This document shows, one piece after another, positions 4,822-37,238 of a DNA stretch of 64,000 nt. The stretch is taken from assembly GCA_009996615.1 (NCBI GenBank), contig JAACZU010000003.1:124001-188000 (forward strand), written 5' to 3'. The notes below the pieces were generated by a model. The model did not search any database, had not been told where the DNA came from, and saw nothing but the letters and a program-made list of their open reading frames with translations. The translations under genes and the position numbers were made by a program. The DNA is from Rhodanobacteraceae bacterium. Its GTDB lineage: Bacteria > Pseudomonadota > Gammaproteobacteria > Xanthomonadales > Rhodanobacteraceae. Numbering within the stretch: position 1 is the first letter of the stretch; every line of letters begins with the position of its first letter.

Positions 4822-5916
4822 TCACGCATGCCGCCGGAAGTACGCCCAGGCGGCGGCCACGAGGATCAGCGGCGGAACCAGGTTCGCCAGTGCCGGATGG
4901 AAACCGTACACGGCGCCGAAGCTGACGATCGCGCGCTGCAGGAAATAGAAGCCGAGCGCGAGCACGATGCCGATGAAGAGGCGCTTGGACAGGCCGCCGC
5001 TGCGCAAGGCGCCGAACGCGAACGGCACCGCGCAGAACACCAGCACCAGCACGTTGAGCGGATAGAACACGCGCGTCCACCACACGCCGCGATAGCTCGA
5101 CGCGTCCTGCTGGTTGCGCTCGAGGTAGGCGATGTTGCGGTCGAGGTCGCGCAGCGGCATGTACTGCGGCTGGATGATGCTGAGCGCGAGCAGGCGCGGG
5201 TCCAGGCCCGAGTGCCAAGCCGTCTCGGCCTGCGTGCGGCTGGTCGCGCTGTCGGGACCGAACTCGGTGCGGCGCACGTCGCGCAGGACCCAGTCCTGCG
5301 GCGTGTGGATCGCGCTGTTGGCCAGCGACAGCGCGTGCAGGCGGCCGTCCGGCTCGAATTCGAACACGCGCACGCCGTCGAGGTCGACCTGCGCCTTGCC
5401 GCCGTGCGTGCGCGCGCGGCGCGCACTGATCACCGTGGTGCCGTCGAGCGCCCACAGCGTGCCGCCCTTGGCCAGCGCGACGTCGCGCGACTTGGCCGCG
5501 ATCGACAACGCCTGCGCCTTGCGTTCGCCGAGCGGGCCGAGGGTCTCGCCGAGCAGCACGACCAGCACGGTCAGCAGGCCGATGCCGAGCGCGACCGAGG
5601 CGCAGATGCGCAGCTTGGACAGGCCGGCCGCGCGCAGCGCGGTCAGCTCGCCGCTGTTGGCCAGGCCACCGAGGCCGAGCAGGCCGCCGATCAGCGCGGC
5701 GTAGCCGAACATCTCGTACAGGCGCCGCGGCACGGTCATCAGCACGTAGGTCGCCGCCTTGGTCAGCGTGTACTGGCCCTGGCCGACGTCGTTGAGTTCG
5801 GAGATGAACACGCGGAATGCGTCGAGGCTTACGATCACGCCCCAGGTCAGCGCGACCGCGCCGAGCACCGCGATCGCGACCAGGCGATCGACCCGCTTGA
5901 AGGCCGGCACGCGCAT
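4822..5916 (-). CDS. lptG: LPS export ABC transporter permease LptG
   Basis: About 364 residues. The membrane topology is that of the YjgP/YjgQ family: TM1 near residues 12-32, a TM pair near 60-120, a large periplasmic beta-jellyroll, and three C-terminal TM segments. With LptF and the ATPase LptB it extracts lipopolysaccharide from the inner membrane. The ATG at 5916 shares one base with the lptF stop codon (TGATG), so the pair is translationally coupled. The order lptF-lptG is standard. The ATPase partner is not in this window. Confidence 0.93.
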   Translation of the reverse strand: MRVPAFKRVDRLVAIAVLGAVALTWGVIVSLDAFRVFISELNDVGQGQYTLTKAATYVLMTVPRRLYEMFGYAALIGGLLGLGGLANSGELTALRAAGLSKLRICASVALGIGLLTVLVVLLGETLGPLGERKAQALSIAAKSRDVALAKGGTLWALDGTTVISARRARTHGGKAQVDLDGVRVFEFEPDGRLHALSLANSAIHTPQDWVLRDVRRTEFGPDSATSRTQAETAWHSGLDPRLLALSIIQPQYMPLRDLDRNIAYLERNQQDASSYRGVWWTRVFYPLNVLVLVFCAVPFAFGALRSGGLSKRLFIGIVLALGFYFLQRAIVSFGAVYGFHPALANLVPPLILVAAAWAYFRRHA

Positions 5917-7091
5917 CACGCCACTCCCGCCGCGCCGCGCGGGCGCTTCAGGCGCTGGCCGCTCCACAGCAGCCACGCCGCGATCGCCAGCGCCGGCAGG
6001 TAGACCCACCACAGGCCGAAGCCCATCGCCAGCTTGCCCTGGCTGAGCCAGGCGCGGCCGAGCAGCAGGCCGTTGTAGTAGACCAGCCAGGCCAGCAGCG
6101 CCAGCAGCAGGCGCGCATAGCGCGGCTCGCGCGGGCTGGACTTGGCCAGCGGCAGCGCGAGCAGCGCCAGCACCAGCACCGACAGCGGCGCGCCGAGGCG
6201 CCAGTGCAGCTCGGCGCGCATGACCGCATCGTCGCTGGCGCGCAGCAGCTCGCCGGTCGACGCGGCGCGCTTGACCGAGGTCGCGCTGTCGTCGGTGGCG
6301 GCGTCGGGCAGGCGGATGTCGTTGCGCGCGAAGCGCATCAGGCGGTAGTCGTCCTCGCCGAGCTTGCCCTCGACGCGGAAGCCGTCCTGCAGCGCGATGT
6401 AGCGGCCGACGCCGTCGGCGTCGTGGTAGAGGTAGCCGTGGGTGGCGGTGATCACGTCGATGCGCGTCTTGCCGGTGTCCTTGTCGGGCCGCTCGCTCTC
6501 GATGAACATGCGCTTGAACTGCGTGCCGTCGCTGGACATTTCGCCGACGTAGATGACGCCATCGCGTCCGGGCAGCTCGACGAAGCGGCCCGGCTCCAGC
6601 CCGGCCACGATCAGCGAACGATTCGCCTCCGTCAGCAGCGCCTGCGCGAGGCGGTCGGCCGCCGGCGCGAGCCAGAACGAGACCACGCCCAGCACCAGCG
6701 CGACCGGCAGCGCGAACAGCGCGAGCGGGCGCACCTGTCCGCGCAGGTCGAGGCCCGAGGACTGCAGCACGGCCATCTCGCTGTCGCGCCAAAGGCGGCC
6801 GTAGGCGAGCAGCACGCCGAGCAGCGTCGCCAGCGGCAGCAGGATGTTCAGCGCGCCGAGCGTGCGCAGGCCGATGAGCGTGAACAGCAGGTCGGCCGGG
6901 ATGCGCCCGCGCGCGATCTTGGCGAGCAGGTCGGCGACCGCACCGCCGACCATGACCAGCAGCAGGATCACGCTCGCGGCGAGGAAGCTGGCGGCCAGCT
7001 CGCGCAGCAGGTAGCGGTCGATCAGGCGCAGGCGCCAGGCAGACGGTGCGCGCGGGGCGGGCGGGCTTTGTCTTAGAATGGATGGCTTCAT
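5916..7091 (-). CDS. lptF: LPS export ABC transporter permease LptF
   Basis: About 391 residues of the YjgP/YjgQ family, partner of LptG in the LptB2FG transporter. The core starts at LIDRYLLREL, with LILP-like NILLPLATLLGVLLAYG and an SEMAVLQSSG block typical of LptF, then the periplasmic domain and three C-terminal TM segments. ATG 7091 is preferred; a second ATG at 7121 would add ten residues. It is divergent from pepA with ~176 bases between them, the classical lptF/pepA arrangement. Its first codons overlap a TAGAAT sequence that could serve the pepA strand. Confidence 0.92.
   Translation of the reverse strand: MKPSILRQSPPAPRAPSAWRLRLIDRYLLRELAASFLAASVILLLVMVGGAVADLLAKIARGRIPADLLFTLIGLRTLGALNILLPLATLLGVLLAYGRLWRDSEMAVLQSSGLDLRGQVRPLALFALPVALVLGVVSFWLAPAADRLAQALLTEANRSLIVAGLEPGRFVELPGRDGVIYVGEMSSDGTQFKRMFIESERPDKDTGKTRIDVITATHGYLYHDADGVGRYIALQDGFRVEGKLGEDDYRLMRFARNDIRLPDAATDDSATSVKRAASTGELLRASDDAVMRAELHWRLGAPLSVLVLALLALPLAKSSPREPRYARLLLALLAWLVYYNGLLLGRAWLSQGKLAMGFGLWWVYLPALAIAAWLLWSGQRLKRPRGAAGVA
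7074..7079 (+). promoter_or_regulatory. Possible -10 element for pepA (TAGAAT)
   Basis: TCTTAGAATGG lies in an AT-richer patch on the plus strand, 189 bases upstream of pepA and inside the first codons of divergent lptF. TAGAAT resembles a sigma-70 -10 box, and the same hexamer occurs upstream of proS. No convincing -35 box was found at 16-18 bases upstream, so this is weak. Confidence 0.25.
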
Positions 7092-21762: not shown

Positions 21763-22563
21763 TCAATCCCCCTGCCCGGTCAGCCGCTGCAGGTACGCAT
21801 CCGCATCGACCGGCACTTCGCGCGGACGCCGGTTCAGCAGATCCTGGATGCGCTCGTCGGGTGCGGCACGCACCTGCGCGACCGTGCCGGTCAGCAGGAT
21901 CCGGCCCTGGTCGAGCACGGTGATCGTGTCGGCGATCTTGAACGCGCTTTCGAGCTCGTGCGTGACCACCACGATCGTCATGCGCAGCGCATCGCGCAGG
22001 CGCAGGATCAGCTCGTCCAGCTCGGCCGAGACGACCGGATCGAGCCCGGCCGACGGCTCGTCGAAGAACAGCAGGCGCGGATCCATCACGATCGCGCGCG
22101 CCAACGCCGTGCGCTTGACCATGCCGCCGGACAGCTGGCTCGGCATCAGGTCCTGGAAACCGCCGAGGTTGACGACCTCGAGCTTGAGCCGGCTCATGAT
22201 GCGGATCGTCGATTCGTCGAGCTTCGTGTGCTCGCGCAGCGGCAACGCGACGTTCTCGCCGACCGTCAGCGAGGTCAGCAGCGCGCCGCCCTGGAACGAC
22301 ACGCCGATGCGCTTGCGCACGTCGAGCAGCTCGCGCTCGCTGGCCTGGCCGAGATCGACGCCGTACAGCCGCACCGAGCCGCCGACCGGCCGCTGCAGCC
22401 CGAGCAGGTGACGCAGCAGCGTGCTCTTGCCCGACCCCGAACCGCCCATGATCACGCGGATCTCGCCCGCATTGACCGTGAAGTCGATCCCGTGCAGCAC
22501 GCGCCGGCGGCCGTACCAGGCTTCGAGCTGTTCGACTTCGATCAGCGGCGCGGATGCATTCAC
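21763..22563 (-). CDS. mlaF: MlaF-type ABC transporter ATPase
   Basis: 266 residues. Walker A GGSGSGKSTLLRHLLG, Q-loop region SFQGGALLTSLTVGENVALPL, ABC signature LSGGMVKRTALARAI and Walker B LLFFDEPSAGLDP are all intact, followed by the H-loop VVTHELESAF. It energises phospholipid movement by the MlaE permease. It is separated from mlaE by ~510 bases that hold copy 1 of the long hairpin-array repeat, which is unusual because mlaF and mlaE normally touch. Confidence 0.93.
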   Translation of the reverse strand: MNASAPLIEVEQLEAWYGRRRVLHGIDFTVNAGEIRVIMGGSGSGKSTLLRHLLGLQRPVGGSVRLYGVDLGQASERELLDVRKRIGVSFQGGALLTSLTVGENVALPLREHTKLDESTIRIMSRLKLEVVNLGGFQDLMPSQLSGGMVKRTALARAIVMDPRLLFFDEPSAGLDPVVSAELDELILRLRDALRMTIVVVTHELESAFKIADTITVLDQGRILLTGTVAQVRAAPDERIQDLLNRRPREVPVDADAYLQRLTGQGD

Positions 22564-22657
22564 GAATCAACTCACCGCTTCGCCAATCGTGCGGCAGAGC
22601 GTAGCCCGGGTGCGGCCTGTGGCTTTGCCCGCGCTACGCGACCGCCTTCCGCTGTGG

Positions 22658-23011
22658 CTTCTGCGCGCAGGAGCGCGCTGCTTTTCCCGGGTCCCCGTTC
22701 AGCGGCGGTGGGCGCCGGACGGATCAGCCCGCAGGGGCGCGCGCACGATGCGCGCGCGTTCGCCGTCGGCACACGGATGTGCCGTCGGCGAACCCCGGCC
22801 GGCGACCACGTACCCGCAGGGCAGGATGCCCGGAGGGCGCCGCTGTTGGGGTGCCCTTTCTCTTGGTTACTTCTCTTTGGACAAGCAAAGAGAAGTAACC
22901 CGCTCGCAGGGATGCGAGTGGAAAACGCAGGGATGCGGGTCGGTTTTCGCGAAGACGGCGACGTTACAGCAACACCATCCCTACCCAACCCTCCCCTTGA
23001 AGGGGAGGGCT
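22658..23011. repeat. ~355-bp multi-hairpin dispersed repeat, copy 1 (between mlaE and mlaF)
   Basis: Nearly identical to 36883-37238. It contains a row of short-looped hairpins: CGCGCGCA-cga-TGCGCGCG (22738-22756); a 16-bp arm pair at 22758-22773/22778-22793 with one mismatch and loop CGGA; GGGCA-gga-TGCCC (22819-22831); a perfect 15-bp stem GGTTACTTCTCTTTG/CAAAGAGAAGTAACC (22865-22900, loop GACAAG); CGCTCGCA-ggga-TGCGAGTG (22901-22920); and CCCTCCCC-ttgaa-GGGGAGGG (22989-23009). This is the whole content of the 511-base gap between the two genes apart from short flanks. Confidence 0.95.
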
Positions 23012-23074
23012 TAAAAAGCCAAACCGGACCCCGGCCCACACCGGGACAACGAGTTCGGCGGACGGATGCGCGAT

Positions 23075-23872
23075 TCATCGATTCAGGAAGAAACTGAAGA
23101 CCATATCGACCACGATGATCCAGCAGATCGCCAGCACCACCGCCCGCGTGGTCGCGCGGCCGACGCCCTCGGCGCCACCGGTGACGGAGAAGCCGGTGCT
23201 GACGCCGATCAGCGTGATCAGCAGCGCGAACACGACGCTCTTGGACAGGCCCTGCCAGACGTCGCCGGGCGCCAGCAGCGCCGTCGTCTGCAGCAGGTAG
23301 GCGAGCGGCGTGACGTTCAGCGCCGGTGCGCTGTACAGCGCAGCGCCGAAGATCGCGACCGTGTTGGCGAAGATCGTCAGCACCGGCAGCATGAGCAGCA
23401 TCGCCAGCAGCGCCGGCGCGACGAGGTAGCGCACCGGGTCGATGCCGATCACCGCCAGCGCGTCGACCTCCTGCGACACGCACATCGAGCCGACCCGCGC
23501 GGCCAGCGCGGAGCCGGAACGGCCGGCGACGAGGATCGCGGTGATCAGCGTGCCGAACTCGCGCGTGACCGACTTCGCCACCGCGACGACGACCTGCGAC
23601 TGCGCGCCGAATTCGCTCAGCGAGGCGATGAACTGGATGCCGAGCATCAGCCCGACCGTGAACGCGAGCAACGCGACGATCGGCAGCGCGTCGACGCCGA
23701 TCTCGCGCATCTGGCGCGCGACCGCGGCGACACGCACCGGCTGGCCGATGCGCCAGCCGGCGACGGTGAAGTACAGCGCCTCGACCAGCAGCATCGCCGC
23801 GTAGCCGACACCGCCGAGCGCGCCGAGCGTGGCGCGGCCGAGGCTCGCCAGCGGGCGTGCCAGCGCGTTCAT
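23075..23872 (-). CDS. mlaE: MlaE-type lipid ABC transporter permease
   Basis: 265 residues, polytopic. The MlaE/YrbE signature regions are GVDALPIVALLAFTVGLMLG, TREFGTLITAILVAGRSGSA (with the EFG and GR.G motif) and MCVSQEVDALAVIGIDP. Five to six TM helices are visible. ATG 23872 overlaps the STAS gene stop (ATGA), so MlaE and the STAS protein are coupled, as MlaE and MlaB interact in E. coli. The stop is followed by ~510 bases of repeat before mlaF. Confidence 0.93.
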   Translation of the reverse strand: MNALARPLASLGRATLGALGGVGYAAMLLVEALYFTVAGWRIGQPVRVAAVARQMREIGVDALPIVALLAFTVGLMLGIQFIASLSEFGAQSQVVVAVAKSVTREFGTLITAILVAGRSGSALAARVGSMCVSQEVDALAVIGIDPVRYLVAPALLAMLLMLPVLTIFANTVAIFGAALYSAPALNVTPLAYLLQTTALLAPGDVWQGLSKSVVFALLITLIGVSTGFSVTGGAEGVGRATTRAVVLAICWIIVVDMVFSFFLNR

Positions 23873-35882: not shown

Positions 35883-36812
35883 ATGAACGCGCGCCGGCTG
35901 CTGCGCGCGCTCGGCCTGCTGCTCGGGCTGGCCACACTGGCCTGGATCGGCCTGCGCTTCGCGCGCAGCGACGCGCTCGCGGTGCTGCAGCACGTGCCGG
36001 CCGGGCCATGGCGGCTCGGCGCCGCGCTGGCGCTGGCGGCCGTCGGCTATGCGCTGGCGCTCGGCGCGCTCGCGTTCGCCTGGTGGCGCCTGCTGGCCGG
36101 GCTGTCGTCGACCGCGCCGCCGGCGTGGCCGACGATGGCGACGTGGGGCGTGAGCCAGTACGGCAAGTACCTGCCCGGCAACGTCGCGCACTACGCGCTG
36201 CGCCATGCGTGGAGCCGCCGCCAGGCGACGCCGCACAGCGTGCTCGGGCTGGCCGCGCTGCTCGAGGCCGCGCTGCTGCTGCTGACTGCGCTCGCGCTCG
36301 CGTTGGCGGGCGATGCGCACGCGCTGCCGTTGCCGCGCCTCGATGCGCGCCTGCTGTTTGGCCTGCTGCTCGCCGGCCTGCTCGCCGGCGGCCTCGTGCT
36401 GCGCTGGCTGCGCCGCCGCGGCGGTCTCGCCGGCGTGCCGCTGCCGGCCGTGCCGGTACCGATGCTGGCGGGCGTGTTCGCCTGCGACCTCGCTTTCTTC
36501 GCCGCGGGCGCGGCGATCCTGTGCGGCCTCGGCCTGCTGCTCGGGCTCGCCGCCGACTGGCCGCTGATGCTCGCCGCCGGCGCCGCCGCCTGGGCCGCCG
36601 GCTTCGTCGTGATCGGCGCGCCGGCTGGCCTGGGCGTGCGTGAGGCGGCGTTCGTCGCACTCGCCGGGGGCGCGCTCGGCGAGGACCGCGCGCTGCTGCT
36701 GATCGCGCTGTACCGGCTCGTCACGTTCCTCGGCGACACGCTGCTGGCCGCGGCGGGTGCCGCGCTGATGCGCTTCGCGCGCAGCGCGGCAGCGGCCGGG
36801 CAGAACGCCTGA
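35883..36812 (+). CDS. Lysylphosphatidylglycerol synthase/flippase-like membrane protein (UPF0104)
   Basis: 309 residues with about eight TM helices. The pattern fits the LPG_synthase_TM/UPF0104 family: WWRLLAGL near 68, WGVSQYGKYLPGNVAHYALRH, and the late GAPAGLGVREAAFVAL block. Such proteins act as lipid flippases or as partners of polyprenyl glycosyltransferases. It ends the glycan cluster, 28 bases after the large membrane protein. Together the four genes look like a pathway for modifying and displaying a polyprenyl-linked sugar. Confidence 0.82.
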   Translation: MNARRLLRALGLLLGLATLAWIGLRFARSDALAVLQHVPAGPWRLGAALALAAVGYALALGALAFAWWRLLAGLSSTAPPAWPTMATWGVSQYGKYLPGNVAHYALRHAWSRRQATPHSVLGLAALLEAALLLLTALALALAGDAHALPLPRLDARLLFGLLLAGLLAGGLVLRWLRRRGGLAGVPLPAVPVPMLAGVFACDLAFFAAGAAILCGLGLLLGLAADWPLMLAAGAAAWAAGFVVIGAPAGLGVREAAFVALAGGALGEDRALLLIALYRLVTFLGDTLLAAAGAALMRFARSAAAAGQNA

Positions 36813-36882
36813 GAGGGCATCGACAAGAGCAATCCGCTCGATTTTGTGGGAGTTGCTCGCTGTTGCTGTGGCCTTGCTTGAG

Positions 36883-37238
36883 CTTCTGCGCGCGGGAGCG
36901 CGCCGCTTTTCCGGGTCCCCGTCAGCGGCGGTGGGCGCCGGACGGATCAGCCCGCAGGGGCGCGCGCACGATGCGCGCGCGTTCGCCGTCGGCACACGGA
37001 TGTGCCGTCGGCGAACCCCGGCCGGCGACCACGCACCCGCAGGGCAGGATGCCCGGAGGGCGCCGCTGTTGGGGTGTCCTTCTCTTTGGTTACTTTCTCT
37101 TGGACAAGCAAGAGAAAGTAACCCGCTCGCAGGGATGCGAGCGGAAAACGCAGGGACGCGGGTCGGTTTTCGTGGAAACGATTACGCGAGAACCGAACAC
37201 CATCTCCACCCCAACCCCAACCCTTGAAGGGGAGGGCT
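36883..37238. repeat. ~355-bp multi-hairpin dispersed repeat, copy 2
   Basis: The second copy of the element at 22658-23011, same orientation, in the gap between the convergent flippase-like and ybeD genes. The central stem is GGTTACTTTCTCTTG (37088-37102), loop GACAAG, CAAGAGAAAGTAACC (37109-37123), again perfect although the sequence differs from copy 1. CGCTCGCA-ggga-TGCGAGCG (37124-37143) is perfect here and has one G-T pair in copy 1. This accounts for most of the 562-base gap; 37239-37374 also holds a CCCCCGT-tc-ACGGGGG hairpin near 37303-37318 and nothing else I recognise. Confidence 0.95.

Follow-up and report, generated by a model that had tools for sequence, protein, structure and literature searches.

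A dispersed, amplifying family of structured RNAs with a predicted triplex pseudoknot and possible CsrA/RsmA-binding hairpins in Rhodanobacteraceae and other Pseudomonadota

Two repeats in a 64,000-nt stretch of a Rhodanobacteraceae genome (the window, by which we mean the whole of that stretch) belong, in the safest statement of our sequence comparisons, to a large and real structured RNA family that is dispersed and amplifying and has a predicted triplex pseudoknot. The structural part of this reading, namely the fold, the pseudoknot and the predicted triplex, appears highly probable. We lean towards a fuller reading: a non-coding RNA element that is dispersed and amplifying would bind CsrA/RsmA and carry a triple-helix pseudoknot as its cap. 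Binding of CsrA/RsmA by the GGA hairpins seems somewhat probable, a grade that we lowered slightly when the csrA genomes were re-counted without Betaproteobacteria, and a role of the element as a sponge or in stability is conceivable but rather doubtful. The first-pass annotation of this DNA had not foreseen the pseudoknot, the triplex, the link to TwoAYGGAY and CsrA or the breadth of the family, and no description of the pseudoknot or the repeat was met in the literature searched, which included few subscription papers.

That annotation had described the two copies as a row of hairpins with differing central stems. Both copies were found at their sites when the sequence was re-read and the details given were exact: the central stem has 15 bp in each copy, the loop is GACAAG in both, and the hairpin following the central stem has G-T in copy 1 and G-C in copy 2. 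In a repeat search of the window the copies form an ungapped 293-nt pair with 88% identity. Their parts are listed below; predicted genes come from in-house codon-usage scripts, not from a published gene finder.

22657-~23012, + strand: copy 1, core of the dispersed element, carrying the type 1 pseudoknot and flanked by predicted genes 21763-22563 (-) and 23075-23872 (-)
22657..22678, + strand: 5' hairpin GCGCGC-AGGA-GCGCGC of copy 1, GGA loop
22691..22851, + strand: multibranched 5' domain of copy 1, with outer stem GTCCCCG.TCAGCGGCG / CGCCGCTGTTGGGG, inner long stem and inner hairpins
22737..22757, + strand: hairpin P4 of copy 1, loop CGA (GGA in this loop in many aligned relatives)
22758..22793, + strand: hairpin P5 of copy 1, GGA loop in the context ACGGAU
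22813..22837, + strand: hairpin P6 of copy 1, GGGCAGGATGCCC, GGA loop
22852..22856, + strand: 5' strand of pseudoknot stem S1, copy 1, TGCCC (4 of 5 pairs with GGACA)
22857..22864, + strand: L1 third strand, copy 1, TTTCTCTT, predicted to form major-groove triples with AAAGAGAA of S2
22865..22879, + strand: 5' strand of S2, copy 1, GGTTACTTCTCTTTG
22879..22883, + strand: 3' strand of S1, copy 1, GGACA in the hairpin loop
22886..22900, + strand: 3' (purine) strand of S2, copy 1, CAAAGAGAAGTAACC
22901..22920, + strand: hairpin S9 of copy 1, loop GGGA (AGGGAU)
22926..22937, + strand: hairpin S10 of copy 1, CGCAGGGATGCG, GGA in the loop, as read in the sequence
22994..23009, + strand: 3' terminal hairpin of copy 1, CCCTTGAAGGGGAGGG
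36813..36881, + strand: extension on the 5' side of copy 2, GAGGGCATCGACAAG...GTTGCT, whose first bases are the TGA stop codon of predicted gene 35883-36812
36882-~37237, + strand: copy 2, core of the element with type 2 pseudoknot
37075..37079, + strand: 5' strand of S1, copy 2, TGTCC
37080..37087, + strand: L1 third strand, copy 2, TTCTCTTT
37088..37102, + strand: 5' strand of S2, copy 2, GGTTACTTTCTCTTG
37102..37106, + strand: 3' strand of S1, copy 2, GGACA
37109..37123, + strand: 3' strand of S2, copy 2, CAAGAGAAAGTAACC
37124..37143, + strand: hairpin S9 of copy 2, with G-C where copy 1 has G-T

A chance fold is excluded because both regions fold far below their shuffles (z -9.6 for the copy 1 region and -6.7 for the copy 2 region, with 0 of 100 dinucleotide shuffles equally low). 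Selection on a folded nucleic acid, as the first-pass annotation had proposed, is strongly supported by covariation across genera, by RNAalifold and by the triplex counts given below. In an alignment of 21 sequences from the family and order (A4: two copies from this genome and 19 of 31 stretches from relatives, leaving out incomplete or rearranged centres and also L054 (+) and L058), 83 pairs in 13 helices were paired in 94.6% of cells, and 58 of the 83 pairs had changed on both sides. The covariation score was 0.479, compared with 0.164 (sd 0.009) for shuffles, none of 500 of which reached it, and at most 0.103 when the partner column was slid by 1-3 positions; the counted structure came from this very alignment, which gives it an advantage over the slid versions, and relatedness is not taken into account by the shuffles. 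The variety of pair types argues against these two factors being the sole cause of the covariation. RNAalifold, run on the same 21 sequences with the pseudoknot left out, found compensatory changes in 56 of 79 pairs. Furthermore, the + strand as read has 51 G-U cells and 16 A-C cells, which favours an RNA of this strand over DNA and thus the structured transcript of the two options offered in the first-pass annotation.

The central stem is part of a larger arrangement. Upstream of it stand GGGG-TGNCC and then eight pyrimidines, and TGNCC pairs with GGNCA in the hairpin loop, so that the order S1-L1-S2-S1'-S2' is that of an H-type pseudoknot (S1 of 5 bp, S2 of 14 bp). Across 28 sequences (A1, picked for diversity from 45 rows plus L057) pairing in this region reached 94% in S1 and 99% in S2. 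Among 96 distinct cores, left after 53 of 149 rows had been dropped as gapped or duplicate, the partners of S1 change together in at least eight combinations (TGCCC/GGGCA, TGGCC/GGCCA, TGTCC/GGACA, TCGCC/GGCGA, TGTGC/GCACA, TGCTC/GAGCA, CGTGC/GCACG and CGCGC/GCGCG), and 91 of the 96 form at least 4 of the 5 pairs. The pattern used to fetch the A2 set fixes parts of the S2 arms together with G--CA of the S1 3' strand and leaves L1 and the S1 5' strand free, so S2 counts in A2 are biased. No Rfam family scored above its threshold on the pseudoknot in scans of the window and of 19 relatives' loci.

A third segment joins the change of the arms, as the tract directly 5' of the stem (TTTCTCTT for copy 1, TTCTCTTT for copy 2) matches in each case the copy's own purine arm in parallel orientation. 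As far as the sequence goes, the change of the central stem between the window copies is therefore three-stranded. Read 5' to 3', the 8-nt L1 is the parallel complement of the 3' purine strand of S2, in the combinations TTTCTCTT/AAAGAGAA, TTCTCTTT/AAGAGAAA, TTTCTTTT/AAAGAAAA, TTTTCTTT/AAAAGAAA, TTCTTTTT/AAGAAAAA and TTCTTTTC/AAGAAAAG, and it is predicted to match that strand as the third strand of a U•A-U/C+•G-C major-groove triple helix would. The U.A or C.G rule is obeyed at 738 of 768 positions in the 96 cores (shuffles: mean 0.757, maximum 0.805), and the fraction falls to 0.56-0.64 in shifted registers of L1 and to 0.61 in the antiparallel reading. The match is perfect in 80 of the 96 cores, compared with at most 35 in 2000 shuffles. 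In a second core set with automatic register (A3; 21 of 129 matches dropped as short or overlapping, 4 of 108 for lacking a 12-of-14 stem, and 17 duplicates) it is perfect in 44 of 87, with at most 16 in shuffles; some of the non-matches look like register errors and others have no pyrimidine tract. All 16 copies with an intact pattern in this genome keep the three strands consistent.

The geometry of S2 may also fit the bridging rule of pseudoknots, by which one nucleotide spans six to seven pairs across the deep groove, as the third strand covers eight of its 14 pairs and leaves six. Hoogsteen triples with C require protonation, which counts against a triplex. In two A3 cores the purine arm contains a T and the third strand has G opposite it (TTTGTTTT/AAATAAAA and TTTCTGTT/AAAGATAA), which is what a G.T-A triple would show. 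Known triplex pseudoknots share the order S1-L1-S2 and L1 pyrimidines lying parallel to the 3' purine strand of S2. The element differs from them in its eight contiguous predicted triples, in its place within a dispersed repeat and in having no known ligand or regulated downstream gene; homology was compared by Rfam scans alone.

The family extends well beyond this genome. BLAST found matches in 28 of 41 genomes of the genus, family and order (own genome included, as in the counts that follow), with identity down to ~70%. Matches to R1, a covariance model of the central stem and the next hairpin, occurred in 120 of 147 genomes sampled from the family, where at most 31 candidates per genome were scored and copy numbers are lower bounds, in 89 of 369 genomes of the class and in 63 of 398 genomes of the phylum; the 17 phylum matches outside the class all fall in one family and are weak (best E 5e-9). 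Additionally, a DNA pattern retrieved at least 118 stretches from named genomes, including Dyella, Xanthomonas, Lysobacter, Stenotrophomonas, Pseudomonas, Aeromonas, Methylomonas, Thiobacillus, Rhodoferax, Psychromonas and others.

Copies in MAGs labelled Desulfobulbus (L118) and Spirochaetes (L189) may reflect horizontal transfer or mis-binning. One 8-kb stretch of a Cystobacterineae MAG holds both a copy of the element and a match to sRNA-Xcc1 (RF02221), the latter at L158 5155-5245. A scan of the window with Rfam gave nothing at gathering threshold and, at permissive E-values, nothing convincing on either copy; ryfA matched the window copies below threshold, at 18.8 of 80 bits. In E. coli K-12 MG1655 (L327), hairpins TAACTCTCTTTT-TGTCAAGC-AAAAGAGAGTTA, or near to this, lie by ryfA/timR at 996-1027 and 676-703 and give partial R1 matches of 26.7 and 23.5 bits; their GACAA/TTGTC could form S1, and the pyrimidine loop 1 is absent from them, so that these look-alikes are no more than a lead.

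The multibranched 5' domain of copy 1 (22691..22851) is the counterpart of a TwoAYGGAY-like domain in relatives. TwoAYGGAY has been proposed as a CsrA-binding RNA on the basis of motif matches (PMC4333381) and is listed in one table row of PMC2864571. Nineteen relatives' loci gave six matches to this family (RF01731, clan CL00106) above gathering; the match stands directly 5' of the R1 match in L140, L121 and L143, and elsewhere in the locus in L130 and L106. Of 30 TwoAYGGAY loci, 15 have R1 no more than 100 nt further 3' in the same orientation (E 5e-15 to 1e-5); in the other 15 (six genomes), whose folds are mostly a plain junction, R1 was not found next to TwoAYGGAY. The window copies gave no TwoAYGGAY match at gathering (43 bits) and none was listed at permissive E-values, and the whole genome gave 0 matches under stricter filters. 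In the window the AYGGAY pair is represented by ACGGAU in P5 and ACGAU in the paired P4 loop, and many relatives have GGA in both. TwoAYGGAY resembles the element, as seen in many of the relatives, in pairing A(N)GGA-loop hairpins on a junction, and it is likewise multicopy in some genomes. The element has roughly double the length, an outer stem and extra hairpins, and its triplex pseudoknot sits 3' of the Rfam match. By analogy, its 5' domain may be likened to TwoAYGGAY and to CsrA-binding RNA, though the window copies score below the Rfam threshold.

GGA occupied the loop in 160 of 419 hairpins of the 5' domain and in 25 of 552 control hairpins, compared with 10 and 19, respectively, for TCC; the 419 come from named genomes with and without csrA. 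Over 29 copies of the present genome, which has csrA, three loop GGAs show 1 change in total. GGA hairpins per element averaged 1.35 over 48 genomes with csrA and 0.29 over 17 genomes without it (genome means, Mann-Whitney p=9e-5), and at least one GGA hairpin was found in 38 of the 48, 10 having none, and in 5 of the 17; these p-values and those below ignore phylogeny, and some misses of csrA may be assembly gaps. The counts took in only loci with a csrA call and dropped 28 of 250 rows as short or overlapping and 12 stretches as too near an edge; L175, L191, L208 and L219 are missing from them and G457, G204, G224 and G289 lie outside them. Four incomplete genomes without csrA (G265, G330, G352 and G380) were at first omitted, after GGA loops had been seen in several of their elements. 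Three of these four have some GGA hairpins, and adding them gives a mean of 0.39 in 21 genomes (p=1e-4). In a set of seven csrA-less genomes, GGA was present in 10 of 52 hairpins. When the ten genomes titled Betaproteobacteria, which we take to belong to that class, are set aside, the mean for genomes lacking csrA becomes 0.57 over 7 genomes (p=0.045), and 0.66 over 11 if the incomplete genomes are counted too (p=0.026). The contrast is thus mostly one between beta- and gamma-proteobacteria, and few independent events remain. A csrA match was absent from 11 of 89 R1-positive genomes of the class (lists compared by eye), compared with 56 of 369 overall. The pseudoknot occurs without csrA in 16 of 49 named genomes, so CsrA cannot explain it.

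Sponge RNAs of the CsrB, RsmX/Y/Z and RsmW type likewise carry several GGA-loop hairpins in series, and RsmW, which belongs to the same Rfam clan as TwoAYGGAY, matches a Xanthomonas copy below its threshold (25.4 vs 52 bits). Such sponges are encoded by one to a few regulated genes, whereas the element is a dispersed repeat with a pseudoknot. The comparisons show that a transcript of the + strand would fold into the multibranched, TwoAYGGAY-related 5' domain with several GGA loops in an ANGGAU-like context, followed by the H-type pseudoknot, in which L1 would form the predicted triplex with S2, and then by further hairpins. According to the reading that we prefer, read-through transcripts, or transcripts of the element's own, would present the GGA hairpins to CsrA/RsmA, and these would titrate the protein or tether it to the host transcript. 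The triplex pseudoknot would cap and stabilise the RNA, or serve propagation of the element in cis; in MALAT1/ENE a triplex stabilises the RNA. Source copies would keep the fold, and many inserted copies would then decay.

Copy 1 itself is an inserted sequence. The genes on either side of it, which look to us like mlaE and mlaF, lie in a locus obtained in 13 of 16 genomes of the genus (own included), and they are only 0-6 nt apart in six congeners (G013, G004, G002, G012, G007 and G009), which implies the insertion; spacing was counted from the last aligned codon. The spacing is 515 nt here (G000), 425 nt in G011, which has a related element in the same orientation, and 131-183 nt, without R1, in four more congeners (L301, L302, L308 and L312); in G003 the second gene was not found. 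R1 matches at this junction (window 22564-23074) occur in G000 and G011 alone of the 13 loci, and insertions seem to be drawn to the junction. Both neighbouring genes are antisense to copy 1, so a role in a 3'-UTR is unlikely there. Elsewhere in the genome, the upstream gene points in the same direction as the copy in 25 of 36 cases with both neighbours called, as it does for 18 of 29 single copies in named high-GC loci, and divergent settings are rare (4 of 36 and, in the named high-GC loci, 3 of 63). A rule of 3'-UTR orientation is not claimed, as tandem settings split 8 against 11 among those single copies.

In total, BLAST marked 54 places in this genome, some being pieces of one copy, and they were taken as 40 loci (L001-L040; L041 overlaps L003), 29 of which (L001-L029) carry the long 5' part. 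By our in-house gene calls none lies inside a gene, although at L014 and L017 the copy reaches 1-2 nt across the edge of a predicted gene, and L040 has no called gene. Sequence like the 5' extension of copy 2 precedes several other copies, and the 5' edge of a long version of the unit begins at TGA (window 36810-36818; L015, L021, L025 and L026). The tail past query position ~305 is present in nearly all copies of this genome and in few of the relatives listed (e.g. G011:C201).

The main rival to CsrA/RsmA binding is that the fold serves the spread of the element itself, as in a SINE- or MITE-like parasite without host function, where a reverse transcriptase or transposase acting in trans would recognise the structure of the RNA or of a transposition intermediate. 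We regard this as unlikely but worth serious weight. In its favour are the likeness of the long copies, which are mostly 90-97% alike to copy 1 while those of congeners are at most 88%, and the modular centre: the first ~195 nt are nearly constant among own copies and the centre has several states. The pseudoknot pattern is intact in 16 of 41 loci (5 of type 1 and 11 of type 2), a ~70-nt insert sits in the stem loop in L018-L021 and, inverted, in L023, the centre is replaced, ~70 nt longer and without its left arm in L022, L024-L029, L032 and L036, and L017 has no central hairpin. Single copies also look unconstrained, as stem changes preserve pairs no more often than expected (16 of 51 vs 16.4) and pair-breaking appears neutral; the change rate per site is 0.013 in stems vs 0.076 in loops. 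Some copies have longer arms and inverted-repeat edges CAGAGGGTGTCTACAAA, and no recurrent neighbour gene appeared among the best 46 rows of an all-against-all BLASTP over 195 loci, which were, as far as seen, frames running through the element.

Against such a parasite stand the lack of a linked transposase (one RAYT, in L115, among 240 loci, besides L240, which had been chosen as a Y1_Tnp locus), edges that look different in other genera, and GGA loops that track csrA, which a parasite would not lead one to expect. No target-site duplication was noticed by eye, and inverted edges were seen in few copies of this genome only. As for vehicles, one Xanthomonas query had no phage match, and plasmid records matched in part, the best being a chromosome-sized record that covered 75% of an Aeromonas query. 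A remnant in this genome (L323) combines the hairpin CCCTCCCCTTCAAGGGGAGGG on the reverse strand with an edge GATAGGGTGTCTACGAA, and no element core was seen in it. Degenerate GTTGCT-like hexamer repeats occur at the 5' end of the element in L104 (Xanthomonas) and L165 (Stenotrophomonas) and stand there at both outer ends of tail-to-tail pairs.

REP/REPIN and SMAG repeats are RAYT-associated, intergenic, multi-copy and palindromic and form inverted pairs; the element resembles them in the last four respects. It might accordingly be a giant REPIN, whose hairpins a RAYT (Y1) transposase would recognise as single-stranded DNA and whose unit would be an inverted pair, a reading that we consider improbable. 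All 39 two-copy clusters in the named high-GC loci are inverted (33 head-to-head and 6 tail-to-tail), as such a unit would be; the same loci hold 59 single copies and one same-orientation cluster of three. A RAYT-like frame, recognised by eye at 5530-5964, lies between two divergent copies in L115 (4513-6380, Methylomonas), and our genome has two Y1_Tnp genes, yet R1 has no match at either of their loci. The excess of G-U over A-C cells (51 vs 16) points to RNA, and the ~300-nt conserved RNA architecture, the pyrimidine-triplex pseudoknot and the csrA-tracking GGA loops are not features of REP, nor was RAYT linkage found in the 240 loci beyond the case of L115.

Finally, the stem versions could be mere haplotypes from gene conversion or hairpin-templated repair, with no structural selection. 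The first-pass annotation had read the two stems as compensatory changes; the arms do match within each copy, but two copies from one genome do not on their own prove compensatory evolution, because both right-arm variants also occur in copies without the left arm (L022, L024-L028, L032 and L036). Types 1 and 2 are haplotypes of one contiguous block of ~45 nt, and block gene conversion could explain the two window versions taken alone. The proof of covariation comes instead from comparison with other genera. There, three-strand covariation already contradicts a haplotypes-only origin, as covariation in mirror image is not expected from duplication, inversion or inter-arm repair, and such repair can yield neither the mirror-image third strand nor the covariation of S1, let alone 58 covarying pairs over 300 nt; we therefore hold this origin to be very improbable. 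A protein-coding repeat with selected peptides (DKQEKVTRSQG and the like) can be set aside almost entirely, despite the recurrence of similar peptides as frames through copies in other genera, which makes it plausible that such peptides are annotated in related genomes, as 41 of 43 indels, scored in the long copies with one of the 16 as reference, have lengths not divisible by three, only 4-6 of 16 long copies are free of stops in each of five frames and none in the sixth, and the peptide KVTKEK was unmatched in the literature searched, in line with the earlier view that the short frames are probably artefacts.

A structured RNA is most often a single gene or a leader; the large covarying architecture described here takes the form of intergenic repeats, and peptide-like frames run through it. 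The three-strand covariation amounts to an evolutionary test of a triple helix. The orphan Rfam motif TwoAYGGAY is now tied to a larger element and, because GGA loops seem to accompany csrA, its published link to CsrA becomes testable. At its widest, and tentatively, the element may be a mobile CsrA/RsmA sponge, that is, a transposing RNA gene family in Gamma-, Beta- and perhaps other Pseudomonadota that would parasitise or rewire Csr/Rsm with tens of GGA-hairpin RNAs per genome, each with a telomerase-like eight-triple pseudoknot cap; upon loss of csrA the sponge hairpins would erode and the pseudoknot would be kept for propagation or stability. If this is true, regulators such as RsmA would face many decoys, and these would differ between species.
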